Source: an uncultured Bacilli bacterium
GTDB taxonomy: Bacteria; Bacillota_I; Bacilli_A; RF39; UBA660
DNA: 48,225 bases
Assembly: GCA_947630575.1 (NCBI GenBank)
Contig: CANRIB010000007.1
Location: 1 to 48,225, forward strand
Direction: 5' to 3'
In this document: in pieces, positions 13,770 to 21,155 of the stretch
Layout: each line of letters starts with the position of its first letter
Numbering within the stretch: position 1 is the first letter of the stretch
The notes under the pieces: model-generated
Seen by the model: only the letters and a program-made list of their open reading frames with translations
Told to the model about the DNA's origin: nothing
Databases searched by the model: none
Translations under genes and position numbers: made by a program

Positions 13770-15168
13770 AAGCTTTCTTCTTCATTATTGTTGCATCCAT
13801 AACCATTTTTACTAAAATACTTAGAATTACTGTTATAATAACAGTTGGAATAAATATTAGCCAGAATGAATAGATTGTTTCGGCTGTATTTTGTCCTAGT
13901 ACTCTTAGCATAAATATTGCTACTGGATAATGTAACATATAAACATATAAGGAAATACTTCCTAAGTAAGCAAATAAGCTATGGGTTACATCATTGTTTA
14001 GAGCTTTAGTTAAATAATCTTTATTTAATAAAGTTAAGCCAATTACAATGATACATAATAATGATACAGTCCAACGATCTAAATTAAACCATGTTGCTGG
14101 ATATATTGTGTACCATAATAGTAAGCCAGCTGATACAACATTTAAAGCTGTTAACGCGATAACTCCAGTTTTAGAGAATTTACGATTTTTAATGCGTTCA
14201 ATAAAGTAGTATAGGATAATACCACCTAACATACCTAGCATAACAAATAGTAAACCATTGTTAAATCCTAGGAATGCTGTTGCATCAGTTGCAGAACCGC
14301 CCATACCATTAGTTGAGGCTGTTTGTAAGCCAATTGTTGACCAAGCAGTTTGAGCTGCACGTGTACCTGTAAATGCCCACCATCCACTTAAGAAGACAAA
14401 TATAAATGGAGCAACTAAACCTGATAAAGTATCTTCACTTTTGCATAAGCCCCAATATAGGAAATAGCCAACAATAATAATTGCGGAAATAAACCATAAT
14501 GGACCATTTAAGTTAAAGAATTCACTACCAGTACTACGTAAACCAACAGCATGGAAACCTAAAAATTCCCAAGCACTGTTAATAGTCATGGTGCATATTT
14601 GTTGGAAAGTATAATCAGGATAATAGAATTTAGTACTTATTAAAATACCTAAAATATATCCAAGAATCAATACAGGGATTAATCCTTTAACACGACTCCA
14701 AGTATATTCCCATGCACGTGAACTAGCACTTCTTTTTTGGTATTCAGCATTTTGACTTTTTTTCTTAAAATGAGATACCATAAAATAACCGGCAGTTAAA
14801 GTAAAGATTAATAATACTTCACTTGAACCAAAGAACCAATTACTTGTTTCCATCCAGTAACCATTAGTACCATTACAACTACGAGCAATTATCCAACCAG
14901 TATGAAAACCAATTATAGTAATTGCAATTATGAAACGCCATAATTCAATAGCAACATTTCTTTTAGTAGGTTTAGCTTCAACTTTAGGTTCGGTTTTAAC
15001 TTCAACTTTAGCAATTGTTTTTGTAGCAGGACGTGTTGCAGCGCTTGTTTTGCTAGCTGTTAATTTAACTGCTGTTTTAGTTGGAGTTTTACTTGTTTTT
15101 TTAGAACTTGAAGTTGTTTTTTTGGCTGGACTTTTAGTTGTTGTTCCTCTTTTCTTTTCCTCTTTCAT
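13768..15168 (-). CDS. Acyltransferase 3 family membrane protein with basic N-terminal tail
   Basis: A 466-residue member of the OafA/WecH acyltransferase-3 family. About ten transmembrane segments follow the family opening NVAIELWRFIIAITIIGFHTG, whose His is expected to be catalytic. These proteins acetylate or acylate cell-surface glycans using cytoplasmic acyl donors. Unusual is a 65-residue N-terminal tail of Lys, Thr, Ala, Ser and Pro (repeats of KKT, KTS, PTK), predicted disordered and cytoplasmic. I chose the ATG preceded by GGAGGAGTTGAA. It has its own promoter and terminator, so it is a single-gene unit. Confidence 0.82.
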   Translation of the reverse strand: MKEEKKRGTTTKSPAKKTTSSSKKTSKTPTKTAVKLTASKTSAATRPATKTIAKVEVKTEPKVEAKPTKRNVAIELWRFIIAITIIGFHTGWIIARSCNGTNGYWMETSNWFFGSSEVLLIFTLTAGYFMVSHFKKKSQNAEYQKRSASSRAWEYTWSRVKGLIPVLILGYILGILISTKFYYPDYTFQQICTMTINSAWEFLGFHAVGLRSTGSEFFNLNGPLWFISAIIIVGYFLYWGLCKSEDTLSGLVAPFIFVFLSGWWAFTGTRAAQTAWSTIGLQTASTNGMGGSATDATAFLGFNNGLLFVMLGMLGGIILYYFIERIKNRKFSKTGVIALTALNVVSAGLLLWYTIYPATWFNLDRWTVSLLCIIVIGLTLLNKDYLTKALNNDVTHSLFAYLGSISLYVYMLHYPVAIFMLRVLGQNTAETIYSFWLIFIPTVIITVILSILVKMVMDATIMKKKA

Positions 15169-15190
15169 TTCAACTCCTCCTTTATTATAA

Positions 15191-15219
15191 ATTATATAGC
15201 ATAACATTTTTATAGTCAA
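15191..15219 (-). promoter_or_regulatory. Promoter of the tailed acyltransferase
   Basis: On the minus strand, TTGACT (15214-15219), a 17-base spacer and TATAAT (15191-15196). Confidence 0.75.
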
Positions 15220-15291: not shown

Positions 15292-15882
15292 TTAATGATT
15301 TTCAGTTAATGTATTAACAAAATATTTGGTTAAATTATCATTACGGGCAAGTAGGGGACCAATAAGGGAAGTAACATAAAAATTATGTTCTTTAAAGCCT
15401 TCTAACATAGTTTCGTTATTTCCAAAACCTGATTCTAAATTAAATATTAAATTAGTAGTAGATTTGATTAAATATTCAGTATTTTGAAAAGCATAAATCA
15501 TGCCATTACATAGAGAAGTTGTTGCTTTAACATCGGCAACTTTAAAGGTTTGTTCTTTACTAACTTCATAGAGATTTAAAAACTCAAATAAACTTAAAGC
15601 ATTACCTGTTACTAACATTACTTTATCTTTTTTGATATAACTTAATATATCATTTTTATATTCTAATAGTTTTTGTTGGGCAAGCTTTAAATATTCACTT
15701 CTACCACTTCCGATATAAACAAAGTCATATTTGGGAAATTCTATTTTATCTTCTATGGTAACGTTTGTTATGCTTACTTGATAATTTAATTTTTCTAGGG
15801 CATATTTTAGAGCTTTGATATTACCATTTTCACCATAGAGATTTAAAATATCTGGAAATAAGTGGGCGATATTAATTGTCAT
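15292..15882 (-). CDS. GatD-like class I amidotransferase lacking catalytic residues
   Basis: A 196-residue homologue of GatD, which with MurT amidates the D-glutamate of lipid II. The family start is kept (LFPDILNLYGENGNIKAL, DFVYIGSGRSE). However, the nucleophile elbow, normally CGGYQ, reads LVTGNALSLF with Thr92 where Cys should be. The catalytic-His motif (LHGPLL) reads SLIGPLLARN with Ile174. The protein is also shorter than typical GatD (about 240). It cannot release ammonia from glutamine by the known mechanism, yet the frame is intact. It overlaps the MurT-like gene by 11 bases, so the complex is probably still made. Whether it is a scaffold, an ammonia channel or a regulator is unknown. 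Confidence 0.82.
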   Translation of the reverse strand: MTINIAHLFPDILNLYGENGNIKALKYALEKLNYQVSITNVTIEDKIEFPKYDFVYIGSGRSEYLKLAQQKLLEYKNDILSYIKKDKVMLVTGNALSLFEFLNLYEVSKEQTFKVADVKATTSLCNGMIYAFQNTEYLIKSTTNLIFNLESGFGNNETMLEGFKEHNFYVTSLIGPLLARNDNLTKYFVNTLTENH

Positions 15883-17194
15883 TGTTTTCCTCCCTCATTG
15901 TTTCTTTAAATGGTTCGATATAGTCAAAATTTAAAATACCATATACTTTATCTACTTCATCTTTTATTACTTCTTCTTTTATTTCTAATAAAGAAGGGGC
16001 GGTAATTATTTTTTCTTCCGGAATACCCCCTAAAATTAAACGTTTAGCAATATTTTCGGCATCAATTCCACAGCAATAAAATTTATGAGTATTTTTAAGT
16101 AATAGTTCAAATTCAACATCATAGAGCCATGATATATCAAAATAATTATATCTTCGAGAAATTTCTTTCCAACCAATAATTATATCTTTTTTACTTTTAT
16201 CACTTATAACTTTAAAGACAGCTTGATTGTAAGTGGTGGCATTTTCCGCTTTACAAGATATAGCCGTAAATGTTTTATTATAACTTTCAAAACTAGTTTT
16301 TTTAGAACAATTTATTTTTTTAAAGCTATTAATAATGGTGCTTGATGGTATATCTAGTTCTTTTAAAGTGGCTATCGCGGCAAGAGTATTATATGCATTA
16401 TAAAGCATATCACCACCAATTTCATATTTATCATTTTTAACTTTAATAATGGAAGAATCTAAATCAAGAGTTCCTAAATAATTAGGTGTTTCATATTTAA
16501 AAGAACAAGATGGACAGTTATATTTACCTAAAGTTTCAAAATTATAATAACTATATTCTAAAGTGGTATGACAATAGGGACAACGATAAATATTTAAATT
16601 TTCAAATATTTGTTTTTTATAACTGTATTTATTTTCTTGAATACTATAGTATATTATTTCATTTTTTAAATCTTTAGAAAATTTTCTTAAGTAAGGGTCA
16701 TCCATGTTGGTAATTATTTTGGTGTCTTTAGGAATACTTTCTAATATATCTTGATAAACTAAATCGGTATAATGTTGTCTTGGTGGTTGATCTTTGGTTA
16801 AATTAGTGATAATAACATATTTAGGATTAAGATATTGAAAAGCTTTTTTAGTATATCTTTCATCCATTTCTAAAACAATATAATCAGTTTTTATTTTTCC
16901 CGTTAAAGTGCAATTTTTAAGTAAAGTAGTAGTAATACCACGGTCGAGGTTAGAACCACTTTCATTAAATGTTACTTTGGCCCCATTATTTTTTAGAGTT
17001 GTAGCAATAAGATTAGAGGTGCTTCCTTTTCCTGATGAACCTGTAATAACAATTGTATTTTCGGGATATTTTAATTTACTTAATAGCTTTTTATCTATTT
17101 TTAAGGCAGTTTTTCCTGGAAGAGTACTGCCACGATGGAGTAAAGAACCTAAAAATATTAAGATTTTCCCAGTTATAATAGCAAGTGTTTTCAT
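15872..17194 (-). CDS. MurT-like Mur-ligase-family protein
   Basis: A 440-residue homologue of MurT, the ATP-dependent ligase subunit of lipid II isoglutaminyl synthase. The P-loop is GSSGKGST (52-59), and TFNESGSNLDRGI follows as in MurT. The zinc ribbon is complete: Cys205, Cys208, Cys227, Cys230. The C-terminal domain keeps DISWLYDVEFE (from Asp353). The segment just before it, usually rich in Asn/Asp/Gly (NDxxADG), reads GWKEISRRYNYF and is not recognisable. It is followed by the GatD-like gene with an 11-base overlap. Combined with the dead GatD, the pair may amidate with free ammonia or act on another substrate (inference). The start is ATG after AAGGAG. Confidence 0.85.
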   Translation of the reverse strand: MKTLAIITGKILIFLGSLLHRGSTLPGKTALKIDKKLLSKLKYPENTIVITGSSGKGSTSNLIATTLKNNGAKVTFNESGSNLDRGITTTLLKNCTLTGKIKTDYIVLEMDERYTKKAFQYLNPKYVIITNLTKDQPPRQHYTDLVYQDILESIPKDTKIITNMDDPYLRKFSKDLKNEIIYYSIQENKYSYKKQIFENLNIYRCPYCHTTLEYSYYNFETLGKYNCPSCSFKYETPNYLGTLDLDSSIIKVKNDKYEIGGDMLYNAYNTLAAIATLKELDIPSSTIINSFKKINCSKKTSFESYNKTFTAISCKAENATTYNQAVFKVISDKSKKDIIIGWKEISRRYNYFDISWLYDVEFELLLKNTHKFYCCGIDAENIAKRLILGGIPEEKIITAPSLLEIKEEVIKDEVDKVYGILNFDYIEPFKETMREENNDN

Positions 17195-17204
17195 TTTTTT
17201 CTCC

Positions 17205-17573
17205 TTATTTGATATTATCTAAATTTTGATGTAGAGGGATGGCATTCCAACCTTCTAATTCATCTTTAAATGGCTCATAGATATCGTTTAATAAATATAT
17301 TTTTTTGTTATAAAAGAAAGCAAAAGCAATCTCGGCAAAAGTATTAGGACCAATATAATTTTCTACGTTATCTTTTTTATTATTAATAACTAATATAGCA
17401 TCTGTGTCTTTGTCTATTATACGATTAAAATGAGCACGAGAGGCGATATTTTTGGGTTCTTTATTGATACATTCAATGGGTAATAAAACTGAATGGCCTT
17501 TAGCTTTTAGATTCTCTCCAATTTTAATAATATCATCTTTTACTTTCATACTTCCACATAAAACTAAATTCAT
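17205..17573 (-). CDS. Nucleoside 2-deoxyribosyltransferase-like small protein
   Basis: A 122-residue Rossmann-like protein. It opens with MNLVLCGSMK, typical of the N-deoxyribosyltransferase/DUF-type superfamily that binds nucleotides. It continues with DAILVINNKK and then NYIGPNTFAEIAFAFFYNKKIYLL, in which the GxNTxxEIA segment is the hallmark and its Glu is the likely catalytic residue. It ends 10 bases before the MurT-like gene and is probably cotranscribed with it. The substrate is unknown. The start is ATG after AGGTGAAG. Confidence 0.7.
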   Translation of the reverse strand: MNLVLCGSMKVKDDIIKIGENLKAKGHSVLLPIECINKEPKNIASRAHFNRIIDKDTDAILVINNKKDNVENYIGPNTFAEIAFAFFYNKKIYLLNDIYEPFKDELEGWNAIPLHQNLDNIK

Positions 17574-17639: not shown

Positions 17640-18755
17640 TTAGCTAGTTCTTAGTTTAATAAACTTTTTATTAAGATAGGATATACTTTTAATAATTAAA
17701 TGGGATAATAAGTCAATAAAGTAAGCGGCAATTAAAGATAGAATAGCTATGATTATAACAGTGGGGATAATATAAATTACTCGTTCTTTAATATACATGG
17801 TGTTATTATTGATAAGAGGATATATTAAAGCATCAAAGATACGTGAAAGCAAGTAGGCCCCAAAGGTTAATACAGATATTTTATTAATGAATTTGGTTAG
17901 TTTAATACTTTTGAAGTTAAAATCTTTATAATTTAATATTAGATTTGCAATTAGAATTGTCATTATTAATACTTCAAAAGAAGCATTTCCAACATATATT
18001 GCCCAGTCAAAATAACTTCCATAATTACGATAAAAATTAAAACAACCAAATAAAATCATTAAAATAGGGATTAATAAAATATTGGTTTTTAATTTAATTT
18101 TTAACTTGTATTCTTTTAAGTATCTTCCTAGATAATAATATAAAATAGGGTACCAGTTTCCCATCCAATAATTGGGCATTAGTTGAGCATAATTTTGAGA
18201 TTTTGCGGGATGAAGCCACCAATTTAAATCATTAATATTATAGATATTTATGGCAGTTGGTAAAACAAATAAGAAAATTAATACTAAAATAAGATTTTGT
18301 TTGGATTTTTGATTTGGTAGAGCTTGCCATAATTTATTTAAGAAAGGTATTAATAAATATAATCCTATATATAATTCAACATACCAACCATAGGGAGCGG
18401 CATCAAATGATAAAATGCTTATAATATAACCACCAATTGATAATGCTTCACGATGTTCTATAAAATGCAGGGTTATTAAACATGCGATAGCGCATAAAAG
18501 ATATGTTAGCAAAATTTTTCCTAGTTTTAAAACATAGGTTTTATTAAATTCTCTTTCTTTAGTTAAATATCCTGATAGAAAAATAAATAAGGGAACACAG
18601 GTCATAAATAAGGGCCTTAGAATATTTAAGCCAAGCATAGTTATGTCTTTTGTTATAGTATTATAAAAATTGATATTACTTAAAGAATGCACGGCAATTA
18701 CAAATATAAAAGCAATAATTCTTAAGATATCACAATTTAAATTTCTTTTAGACAT
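17640..18755 (-). CDS. Acyltransferase 3 family membrane protein
   Basis: A 371-residue OafA/WecH-type O-acyltransferase with about ten transmembrane helices. The N-terminus NCDILRIIAFIFVIAVHSL carries the expected His. FLSGYL and the YGWYVELYIGLYLLIPFLNKL segment are typical. It probably O-acetylates the polysaccharide made by the upstream genes. I chose the ATG just after the upstream stop (AAGGAGAAATAAAT), which overlaps the ribosome site with the end of the previous gene and indicates translational coupling. It is the last gene of the GT2/DUF6056/acyltransferase unit. Confidence 0.83.
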   Translation of the reverse strand: MSKRNLNCDILRIIAFIFVIAVHSLSNINFYNTITKDITMLGLNILRPLFMTCVPLFIFLSGYLTKEREFNKTYVLKLGKILLTYLLCAIACLITLHFIEHREALSIGGYIISILSFDAAPYGWYVELYIGLYLLIPFLNKLWQALPNQKSKQNLILVLIFLFVLPTAINIYNINDLNWWLHPAKSQNYAQLMPNYWMGNWYPILYYYLGRYLKEYKLKIKLKTNILLIPILMILFGCFNFYRNYGSYFDWAIYVGNASFEVLIMTILIANLILNYKDFNFKSIKLTKFINKISVLTFGAYLLSRIFDALIYPLINNNTMYIKERVIYIIPTVIIIAILSLIAAYFIDLLSHLIIKSISYLNKKFIKLRTS

Positions 18756-18757
18756 AT

Positions 18758-20209
18758 TTATTTCTCCTTTTCCCATTCATTATAAGAAACGAATTCAAAT
18801 TCTATATCTGGGTTTATTTTTAAAATAGATTTATATAAGTTACTATAATATTCATTTGCAAAATTACCAACCCAAACATAATTTGAATAAGGTAGATAGG
18901 GGACTTTAATATAATCAGCTGTTTTACTTTTTTCAAGAATATAATTTTCACGTTCATAATATACTTTGGAAATACGAGCATACACGGAAGTATAGAATAC
19001 ACTAATTATAGTAATAATGATAATTAAATATGGTTTATAATTAAATTTTATTTCTAGTTCTTGATATATTAGAAGAGATAAGATTATTTCTAAAACATAA
19101 ATCATAAAAAAGTTACGAGGACCTATTGGAGTTACAATAAATAATGGAGATACAAGTCCAATTATAGTGCATAATATAATAATTATTGGCTTATAGATTT
19201 TAGTATTTTTAAAGATAATTAGAAGAGATATAAATATAGATATTAAAAATAGAATAGTTAAAATAGTATTTAACATATTAGTATATTCATCTAGTATAAA
19301 CCAAGAAATATGATTACAAATTGAAGAATAAGCAACATATAAAATGTTAAAATACATGGAAATTGTAATTAATTTTCTTTTTTTAGCAGTAAAAAGATGT
19401 TTATGTTTTTCAAAATAAATTATTATTAAAATAATAAGAAACGCGATTAATACAACATTATTAAAAGATATAAATTTATATATAGTACTAGAAAAATTAC
19501 TTTGAATTTTATCAAATATATCTAAAAAGCTATGGCCATAAGTGCGATAAGTATCAGTGCCATTTAAAACTTTAAAATAGGCGGGATGGAGAAACATGGT
19601 TAAAGCTCCTGCCAATGAAGAAATGCCTAATGTTGCAAGATGTTTATTTATTTTTTTATACTTTAAATAATATATAATTGTAGTTATAATTAAAGATAGA
19701 ACAAGAAAGACTGTTAAGTTTTCAATAAATAAAGTACTAATATAAGTTAATACTAAAGGTATTATAAAATGTTTTTCTTTATTGTGATATGAGTTATAAA
19801 TTATTTTTAACATAATTAATAGTAATAAAGTGGAAATAACATAATTGGCAAATCCACTTGACCAAATAACACTTTGTTTTAAGGTATCTACAGGCATACA
19901 TAATAATAAAAACCAAATAAGAAGGAAACTTGTCTTTGTTTCTTTATGAATTAAATAAATTATAGTGTTTATAACAAAAGACATAATTAAACCCCGAATA
20001 AAAATATTTTCAGTTAGCATTATAACAATAAGATTACTCATATAACGACCATTTAATGAAGCATTATGAGCAAATCCTGGGATAGTTTGAAAACTCAAAC
20101 TAGTTAAATGCCATTGCCAATCATCCCCAGAATAAGGGAAAAATAATGATATTAGAAAAAAGATAATAAAACTAAATATTAGCCATTTATGTTTTTTAAC
20201 AAATTCCAT
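18758..20209 (-). CDS. DUF6056-like polytopic membrane protein, probable glycan-modifying
   Basis: A 483-residue protein with about twelve hydrophobic helices. The first outside loop carries YSGDDWQWHLTSL, then SLNGRYMSNL, the acidic-plus-NGRY arrangement I associate with DUF6056 proteins in surface-polysaccharide loci and with Gtr-type GT-C enzymes. A soluble C-terminal segment of about 80 residues follows. It lies between a GT2 of the GtrB type and an acyltransferase, with 1-3-base junctions. A likely job is transferring the lipid-linked sugar made by the GT2 onto the polymer outside the membrane (inference). The family label is from memory of the motif. Confidence 0.65.
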   Translation of the reverse strand: MEFVKKHKWLIFSFIIFFLISLFFPYSGDDWQWHLTSLSFQTIPGFAHNASLNGRYMSNLIVIMLTENIFIRGLIMSFVINTIIYLIHKETKTSFLLIWFLLLCMPVDTLKQSVIWSSGFANYVISTLLLLIMLKIIYNSYHNKEKHFIIPLVLTYISTLFIENLTVFLVLSLIITTIIYYLKYKKINKHLATLGISSLAGALTMFLHPAYFKVLNGTDTYRTYGHSFLDIFDKIQSNFSSTIYKFISFNNVVLIAFLIILIIIYFEKHKHLFTAKKRKLITISMYFNILYVAYSSICNHISWFILDEYTNMLNTILTILFLISIFISLLIIFKNTKIYKPIIIILCTIIGLVSPLFIVTPIGPRNFFMIYVLEIILSLLIYQELEIKFNYKPYLIIIITIISVFYTSVYARISKVYYERENYILEKSKTADYIKVPYLPYSNYVWVGNFANEYYSNLYKSILKINPDIEFEFVSYNEWEKEK

Positions 20210-20210
20210 A

Positions 20211-21155
20211 TTATTCGCTTCTTTCTTTAGTTTGATACTCTTTTTTGATTATATAAATTGGTCTTTTTTTAGTTTCGACATAAGTTCTTCCTAAATATTC
20301 TCCTAAAATTCCCATAAAAATCATTTGAAGACCACCAAATAATAGAATTAAACAGACAATGGTTGCATAACCATCAACATTAATACCTAATGTTAATTTT
20401 TGGACAATGATTATTATGGCATATAATACAGAAATAATAAAGGCAATGACACCAATAAATGTGGCTATTTTTAAGGGAAAAGTGGAAAAACCAATGATAC
20501 CATCTAAAGCATATTTGATTAAAGAGAAAAAGTTCCATGATGTTTTTCCATATTTTCTTTCTTCTACTTGGTAGGGCATATAATAGCAATTATAACCAAC
20601 ATAAGAGAAAAAACCTTTAGAAAAGCGGTGATATTCTTTTAATTCAAGCAAGGAATTTACAACTTCTCTTTTTAATAATCGAAAATCTGAAGCATTCTCA
20701 TAAAAATCAATATCACTTAGTTTATTAATAGTTTTATAAAATAGTTTTTTTAAGATTTTAAATGGTTTAGAATCTTTTCTTTTGGCAGGATAACACGCTA
20801 TACAATCATAATCAGGATTTTCATTAATATAGTTATACATTTCATAAACATATTTAGGATGTTGTTGTAAATCAGCATCAATTAAGGCAACATATTGACC
20901 AGTTGATTTTTCTAAACCAGCAAGCATTGCAGCTTCTTTGCCAAAATTACGAGAGAAATCTAAACCTATAATATTATAATTTTTATTTTCTTTAATAAGG
21001 TCTTTTATTTCTTTTAAAGTGTTATCTTTGCTTCCATCGTTTATAAAAATATATTCTATTTTTAAATTTTGGGGAAAAGTTTTTAGACATAAAGAAAAAA
21101 AGGGTTTAATATTAAGTTCTTCATTATAGCAAGGAATAATTAAAGATATATCCAT
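20211..21155 (-). CDS. Family 2 glycosyltransferase, GtrB-type
   Basis: A 314-residue membrane-bound GT2. SLIIPCYNEELNI, INDGSKDNT, GLDFSRNFGKEAAMLAG and ALIDADLQQHP form the GT-A nucleotide-sugar and metal site. Two C-terminal transmembrane helices (about 230-255 and 265-290) precede GEYLGRTYVETKKRPIY. Enzymes of this type transfer glucose or another hexose to undecaprenyl phosphate. It is the first gene of a unit with the DUF6056-like protein and the acyltransferase, and has its own promoter. The start is ATG after AGGAGATG. It is similar in layout to the GT2 at 5723 but clearly a separate gene. Confidence 0.88.
   Translation of the reverse strand: MDISLIIPCYNEELNIKPFFSLCLKTFPQNLKIEYIFINDGSKDNTLKEIKDLIKENKNYNIIGLDFSRNFGKEAAMLAGLEKSTGQYVALIDADLQQHPKYVYEMYNYINENPDYDCIACYPAKRKDSKPFKILKKLFYKTINKLSDIDFYENASDFRLLKREVVNSLLELKEYHRFSKGFFSYVGYNCYYMPYQVEERKYGKTSWNFFSLIKYALDGIIGFSTFPLKIATFIGVIAFIISVLYAIIIIVQKLTLGINVDGYATIVCLILLFGGLQMIFMGILGEYLGRTYVETKKRPIYIIKKEYQTKERSE

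Follow-up and report, generated by a model that had tools for sequence, protein, structure and literature searches.

MurT and GatD, as described in Staphylococcus aureus, Streptococcus pneumoniae and S. pyogenes, amidate the D-Glu of lipid II with glutamine-derived ammonia; the pair is a studied antibiotic target and is annotated as lipid II isoglutaminyl synthase. MurC, MurD, MurE and MurF have the same Mur-ligase fold, and their chemistry is the addition of an amino acid to a carboxylate; FolC carries a P-loop of the GKGS type. GatD need not be catalytic to be required: S. aureus MurT alone is inactive, and in complex with the engineered variant GatD C94G, it loses the use of glutamine but still amidates with NH3 (PMC3266927). 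Similarly, human CPS1, the ureotelic, ammonia-dependent carbamoyl phosphate synthetase 1, retains a naturally dead class I glutaminase domain within an ATP-dependent synthetase (PMC4655335), although this is a different synthetase, with a known use of external ammonia.

The window analyzed here is a stretch of 48,225 nucleotides from an uncultured Bacilli bacterium. It contains the same two overlapping genes as the described systems, with both folds full-length, and, like canonical MurT/GatD, the encoded pair has the zinc ribbon, the P-loop, the Mg and acceptor residues, and the DISWLYD interface segment. Unlike the canonical pair, it lacks the catalytic Cys, the catalytic His, and the oxyanion Gly, its interface loop and DNAADG motif are replaced, and an Arg stands beside the Mg site. 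The same Cys-to-Gly change was made in S. aureus C94G, whereas the window GatD is natural, has also lost the His and the oxyanion Gly, and is accompanied by an altered MurT. The window MurT shares the GKGS-type P-loop with FolC; however, it differs from FolC and from MurC, MurD, MurE, and MurF in having no UDP-binding N-terminal domain, in being paired with a GatD, and in being nearest to MurT in sequence.

The gene pair and its surroundings

The two genes, whose outer coordinates (15292-17194) had been given exactly in an earlier sequence-only reading of this DNA, are as follows.

15292..15882, minus strand: gatD, 196 aa, GatD-fold subunit, short form, predicted to be glutaminase-dead
15872..17194, minus strand: murT, 440 aa, Mur-ligase-like subunit with Mur_ligase_M and MurT_C

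They overlap by 11 nt, and a GGAG-type ribosome-binding site precedes each of them. Sequence searches matched the gatD product to S. pyogenes GatD (phmmer E 3e-19) and the murT product to S. aureus MurT (E 1.5e-45). The AlphaFold models have mean pLDDT values of 93 (GatD) and 88 (MurT); all 196 residues of the former superimpose on a solved GatD (Z 24.3, rmsd 1.8), and 369 residues of the latter on S. pneumoniae MurT (Z 37.9). By fold and homology, the smaller protein is a GatD, and it scores 84.7 bits against the NCBIfam GatD equivalog NF045636, below the cut-off of 400.

On either side of the pair lies an Acyl_transf_3 membrane acyltransferase gene (13771-15219 and 17643-18776), and further upstream are a DUF6056 gene (18761-20209) and a GT2 gene (20214-21155). 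Immediately upstream of murT, a 122-aa protein (17205-17573) has no Pfam match and, by eye, a likeness to the nucleoside 2-deoxyribosyltransferase type. Neighboring genes are not conserved across the clade described below, and a search for a third gene conserved beside murT-gatD in it found none.

The GatD active site

Three sites define the state of the predicted glutaminase.

15604..15606, minus strand: codon GGT for Gly93, at the catalytic Cys position (S. aureus Cys94, S. pneumoniae Cys107)
15361..15363, minus strand: codon ATT for Ile174, at the catalytic His position (S. aureus His189, S. pneumoniae His206)
15703..15711, minus strand: Gly58-Ser59-Gly60, the former GGG oxyanion hole

When VTGNALSLF of the window GatD is aligned without gaps to the canonical ICGGYQFLG, Gly93 falls opposite the Cys and Thr92 is the residue before it. 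This register is fixed by a downstream LFGK that longer relatives keep, and in the structure model a strand (residues 88-92) gives way to a helix at residue 93, which is the position of the nucleophile elbow. The sequence-only reading had named Thr92 as the Cys replacement; the Cys is indeed lost, but the residue was off by one, and the alignment, the longer relatives, and the model together rule out Thr92. Its placement of Ile174 at the catalytic His was borne out by the alignment. With the Cys, the His of the HGP motif, and the GGG oxyanion hole all absent, the earlier description of a MurT-GatD pair with an inactivated glutaminase appears to be right. Further losses are those of Asp32 (S. 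pneumoniae numbering), which is Glu18 here, and of the Gln-capturing Arg142, which is Phe113. Compared with relatives of about 245 aa, the window GatD is a short form without the loop after the nucleophile elbow and without the C-terminal 40 aa or so.

The substitutions are not a peculiarity of one assembly. The sequence-only reading had proposed looking for them in relatives, and about thirty genomes of the same genus have a short dead GatD with the same Cys and His substitutions; among the 35 congeners surveyed, one (G002) has a divergent dead GatD and four gave no match. Compared with the nearest relative, the window's gatD has a dN/dS of approximately 0.2, and its murT has the same. Together, the conservation among congeners and the dN/dS value rule out a pseudogene or decay. 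A second, intact gatD, another point raised in that reading, was not found in the window's genome (assembly 92% complete), where the other GATase_3 match is a peptidase S51 protein, and the congeners are alike in this respect. Loss of peptidoglycan synthesis was also ruled out: the genome encodes MurC, MurD, MurF, an mDAP-type MurE (DNPR), and one further MurE-like ligase, so the organism should make peptidoglycan. The second MurE-like ligase (contig C9, L050:1156-2679) has EDPG where the mDAP MurE (L049) has DNPR.

The MurT partner

The following MurT features were located in the window.

17018..17041, minus strand: P-loop GSSGKGST, residues 52-59, in which Lys56 corresponds to S. pneumoniae Lys59
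16856..16858, minus strand: Arg113, the residue following Asp111-Glu112 (the Mg/acceptor pair); a marker of the dead clade, with Ala, Leu, or Gly in canonical MurT
16766..16804, minus strand: interface/ammonia-channel loop NLTKDQPPRQHYT, residues 131-143; canonical form NFFRDQ[LM]DRxxE, Asp139 lost
16505..16582, minus strand: Cys4 zinc ribbon CPYC...CPSC, residues 205-230, retained
16148..16159, minus strand: SRRY, residues 346-349, standing for the canonical muropeptide-site motif DNAADG
16136..16138, minus strand: Asp353 of DISWLYD, equivalent to S. aureus MurT Asp349; third member of a putative triad, kept though its partners are gone

Mur_ligase_M, MurT_C, and the Cys4 zinc ribbon are all present, as are the P-loop Lys and the counterparts of Asn85, Glu110, and Asp112-Glu113. 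Retention of the P-loop and the zinc ribbon had been noted from the sequence, in agreement with Lys56 and all four zinc-ribbon Cys found here. In S. pneumoniae MurT, Lys59Ala, Asn85Ala, and the joint change of Asp112 and Glu113 to Ser each abolish activity, and the FFRDQ[LM]DRxxE interface loop has been proposed as an ammonia channel (PMC6085368). The window MurT has neither the canonical RDQxDRxxE nor DNAADG, a motif implicated in muropeptide binding and recognition (PMC6113224); instead it has KDQPPRQHY and SRRYNYF. The altered segment before DISWLYD to which the sequence-only reading drew attention is this DNAADG motif, here ISRRYNYF.

Distribution and phylogeny of the dead type

We surveyed the window's genus, class, and phylum, the class Clostridia, the A. 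woodii family, and an Erysipelotrichaceae-like family, and typed the GatD active sites from the DNA of the loci. The resulting 264 distinct GatD sequences, which are not a random set because the profile queries favor the dead type, comprise 174 of the dead type, 85 canonical (Cys and His), and five scattered losses. Dead-type sequences have Gly at the Cys position (Tyr once) and never the His; the scattered ones have Ser/His (twice), Gly/His, Gly/Ser, and Cys/Asp at the Cys/His positions. When the trait columns were left out of MurT tree building, a single branch took in all 90 dead tips and no others (SH-aLRT 77), and the same branch is found in a Bacilli-only tree (SH-aLRT 99), while the scattered losses fall among canonical sequences. 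Judged by these sequences, the dead type forms a single deep clade spanning Bacilli and Clostridia and is no quirk of one genome; the lineage is a large one of mostly gut and anaerobic bacteria. Most genera of the clade have a GatD of about 245 aa, Arg142 is kept in 86% of the long forms, and the GatD of the window's genus is by this comparison a shortened derivative. A search of open-access papers found none describing a dead-GatD clade or MurT in group B walls.

Two divergent dead GatDs, L033 (G002) and L150 (G071), read IGNS and TGNA with TGP, respectively; their MurT loops are of the form FRDS..RNAH/RNGH, and they may have branched off early within the clade. The scattered losses (L240, L250, L254, L222, and L272) are independent of one another and occur in Clostridia whose MurT is otherwise canonical, which makes these loci candidates for true ammonia-dependent amidases.

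Across the dead clade, the MurT residues Lys59, Asn85, Glu110, Asp112, Glu113, Asn132, Asp136, and Lys321 (S. pneumoniae numbering) are each present in at least 173 of 174 sequences. By contrast, Asp139 of the interface loop is lost in all 174 and in none of the 85 canonical sequences, an Arg occupies position 114 beside the Mg site in 149 of 174 versus 0 of 85, and the DNAADG motif is lost. The MurT partners of the five scattered dead GatDs are canonical at sites 139 and 114, so glutaminase loss alone does not drive the change in MurT. It therefore appears, as far as the sequences can tell, that the dead clade has changed what MurT does, although the clade-wide linkage of GatD and MurT traits may reflect a single evolutionary event.

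Whenever a typed genome had more than one copy, the copies were all of the canonical lineage or all of the main dead clade and never mixed, as would be expected if the two types share a single target carboxyl. Within the Erysipelotrichaceae-like family, some genomes have two or three dead pairs whose MurT clefts differ; G962 (L320, L347, and L348) and G961 (L321, L345, and L346) each have three, every MurT cleft being different. We infer that a single ammonia reaction would account for this pattern less well than a ligase that has diversified and competes for one carboxyl.

Cultured members and group B peptidoglycan

Genomes assigned to Acetobacterium woodii and Eubacterium limosum ATCC 8486 carry the dead pair only; the RnfC of one dead-type genome is identical over 442 residues to chain C of PDB 9ERI, the A. 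woodii Rnf complex. Among the 30 GatD loci typed in the A. woodii family, 22 are dead, with the MurT loop LQKDQVQRNGDP, and eight are canonical. In group B walls, the alpha-carboxyl of D-Glu, the group normally amidated by MurT/GatD, carries an amino acid or bridge residue and not an amide, and the murein of A. woodii is of group B. Since D-Glu carries an amino acid in such a wall, an enzyme that amidates it would work against the wall. To our knowledge, no enzyme that builds group B bridges has been identified. The dead pair is present in E. limosum and other Eubacteriaceae, and the peptidoglycan listed for Eubacterium is of type B2alpha (PMC11382707), a link that joins one family to a genus-level wall table.

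Seven of the eight genomes searched in one genus of isolate-like genomes, within the Erysipelotrichaceae-like family, have no MurT (G918, G495, G480, G474, G921, G476, and G509, all without MurT_C); their congener G922 has a dead pair. We take this genus to be possibly Erysipelothrix, the peptidoglycan of which is of group B. If that assignment holds, group B bridges can arise without this pair.

Discussion

The pair very likely carries out a ligation that is independent of glutamine, as predicted from its residues. Our leading reading, which we consider slightly less probable than an even chance, is that of a MurT-type ligase that does without glutamine, in which GatD is a non-catalytic subunit and the nucleophile is probably an amino acid or amine. 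MurT would activate a carboxylate as an acyl phosphate at the expense of ATP, most likely the alpha-carboxyl of D-Glu2 on a lipid-linked peptidoglycan precursor. GatD would hydrolyze no glutamine and would serve MurT folding and domain closure; by analogy with S. aureus C94G and CPS1, a GatD that is catalytically dead yet required is plausible. The incoming nucleophile would not be glutamine-derived ammonia, our first choice being an amino acid, or some other amine, bound in the remodeled MurT cleft, and the product would be a D-Glu substituted at the alpha-carboxyl with a branch or bridge residue rather than D-isoglutamine. The substrate, the nucleophile, and the structural role of GatD are all things that we infer.

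An amino acid or amine is somewhat more likely than free ammonia, which is a close rival. The sequence-only reading had offered three options (free ammonia, another substrate, or a regulatory role); these were reasonable, but the remodeling of MurT that accompanied glutaminase loss speaks against a purely regulatory role, as it does against plain use of ammonia. If the pair is an ammonia-dependent lipid II amidase, which seems possible though doubtful, D-isoglutamine is still made, with GatD as a scaffold and with free NH3/NH4+, plentiful in the gut, as the donor. The intact MurT chemistry residues and the external ammonia used alongside the dead domain of CPS1 suit this well, as does S. aureus MurT with GatD C94G, which amidates lipid II with NH3 at pH 8.5 (PMC3266927). 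However, this reading is weakened by the wild-type S. aureus complex, which does not use NH3 at pH 7.5 (PMC3266927), and it leaves unexplained the conserved Arg114, the losses of Asp139 and DNAADG, and the two to three divergent paralogues per genome; the scattered dead GatDs, which are better candidates for ammonia use, keep a canonical MurT, and amidation of D-Glu would harm a group B Eubacterium.

The amino-acid reading has points against it as well: its link to group B walls comes from one family, a genus-level table, and the murein type of A. woodii; the new MurT Arg could have a role other than amino-acid binding; and the mDAP-type MurE permits ordinary 3-4 cross-links, so a D-Glu bridge is not required in the window organism.

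A substrate other than peptidoglycan D-Glu, such as another carboxylate or a wall polymer precursor on which the Mur-ligase chemistry is kept, is improbable. The muropeptide-recognition motif DNAADG is gone in the clade, and in the window an Acyl_transf_3 gene flanks the pair on each side, with a GT2 gene nearby; yet these neighbors are not conserved, the acceptor-carboxylate residues Asn85 and Asp112-Glu113 are all but invariant, and canonical and main-clade dead pairs never share a genome. Least probable is a regulatory or vestigial pair, binding or sensing a precursor but catalyzing nothing: the lost catalytic residues and the additional shortening of GatD in the window's genus would suit it, but the near-universal retention of the main ATP, Mg, and acceptor residues of MurT and the dN/dS of both genes speak against it.

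Extended to the clade, the amino-acid reading suggests, at a confidence somewhat below that for the ligase itself, that MurT enzymes with a dead GatD join amino acids or diamines to D-Glu2 at its alpha-carboxyl, the first residue of the group B bridge in Eubacterium and Acetobacterium among them, and that their specificity has diversified among the uncultured Bacilli and Clostridia of the gut. Should the amino-acid reading be right, the clade would provide a candidate enzyme for group B bridges together with a culturable test system in E. limosum and A. woodii. If annotation of the clade relies on homology, many gut anaerobes will be predicted to amidate glutamate although they would be incapable of doing so from glutamine. 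Both cross-linking and the recognition of gut peptidoglycan by NOD1 and NOD2 are influenced by the state of D-Glu2 (free, amidated, or substituted); as the window organism has an mDAP-type MurE, the state of its D-Glu alpha-carboxyl would matter for NOD1.
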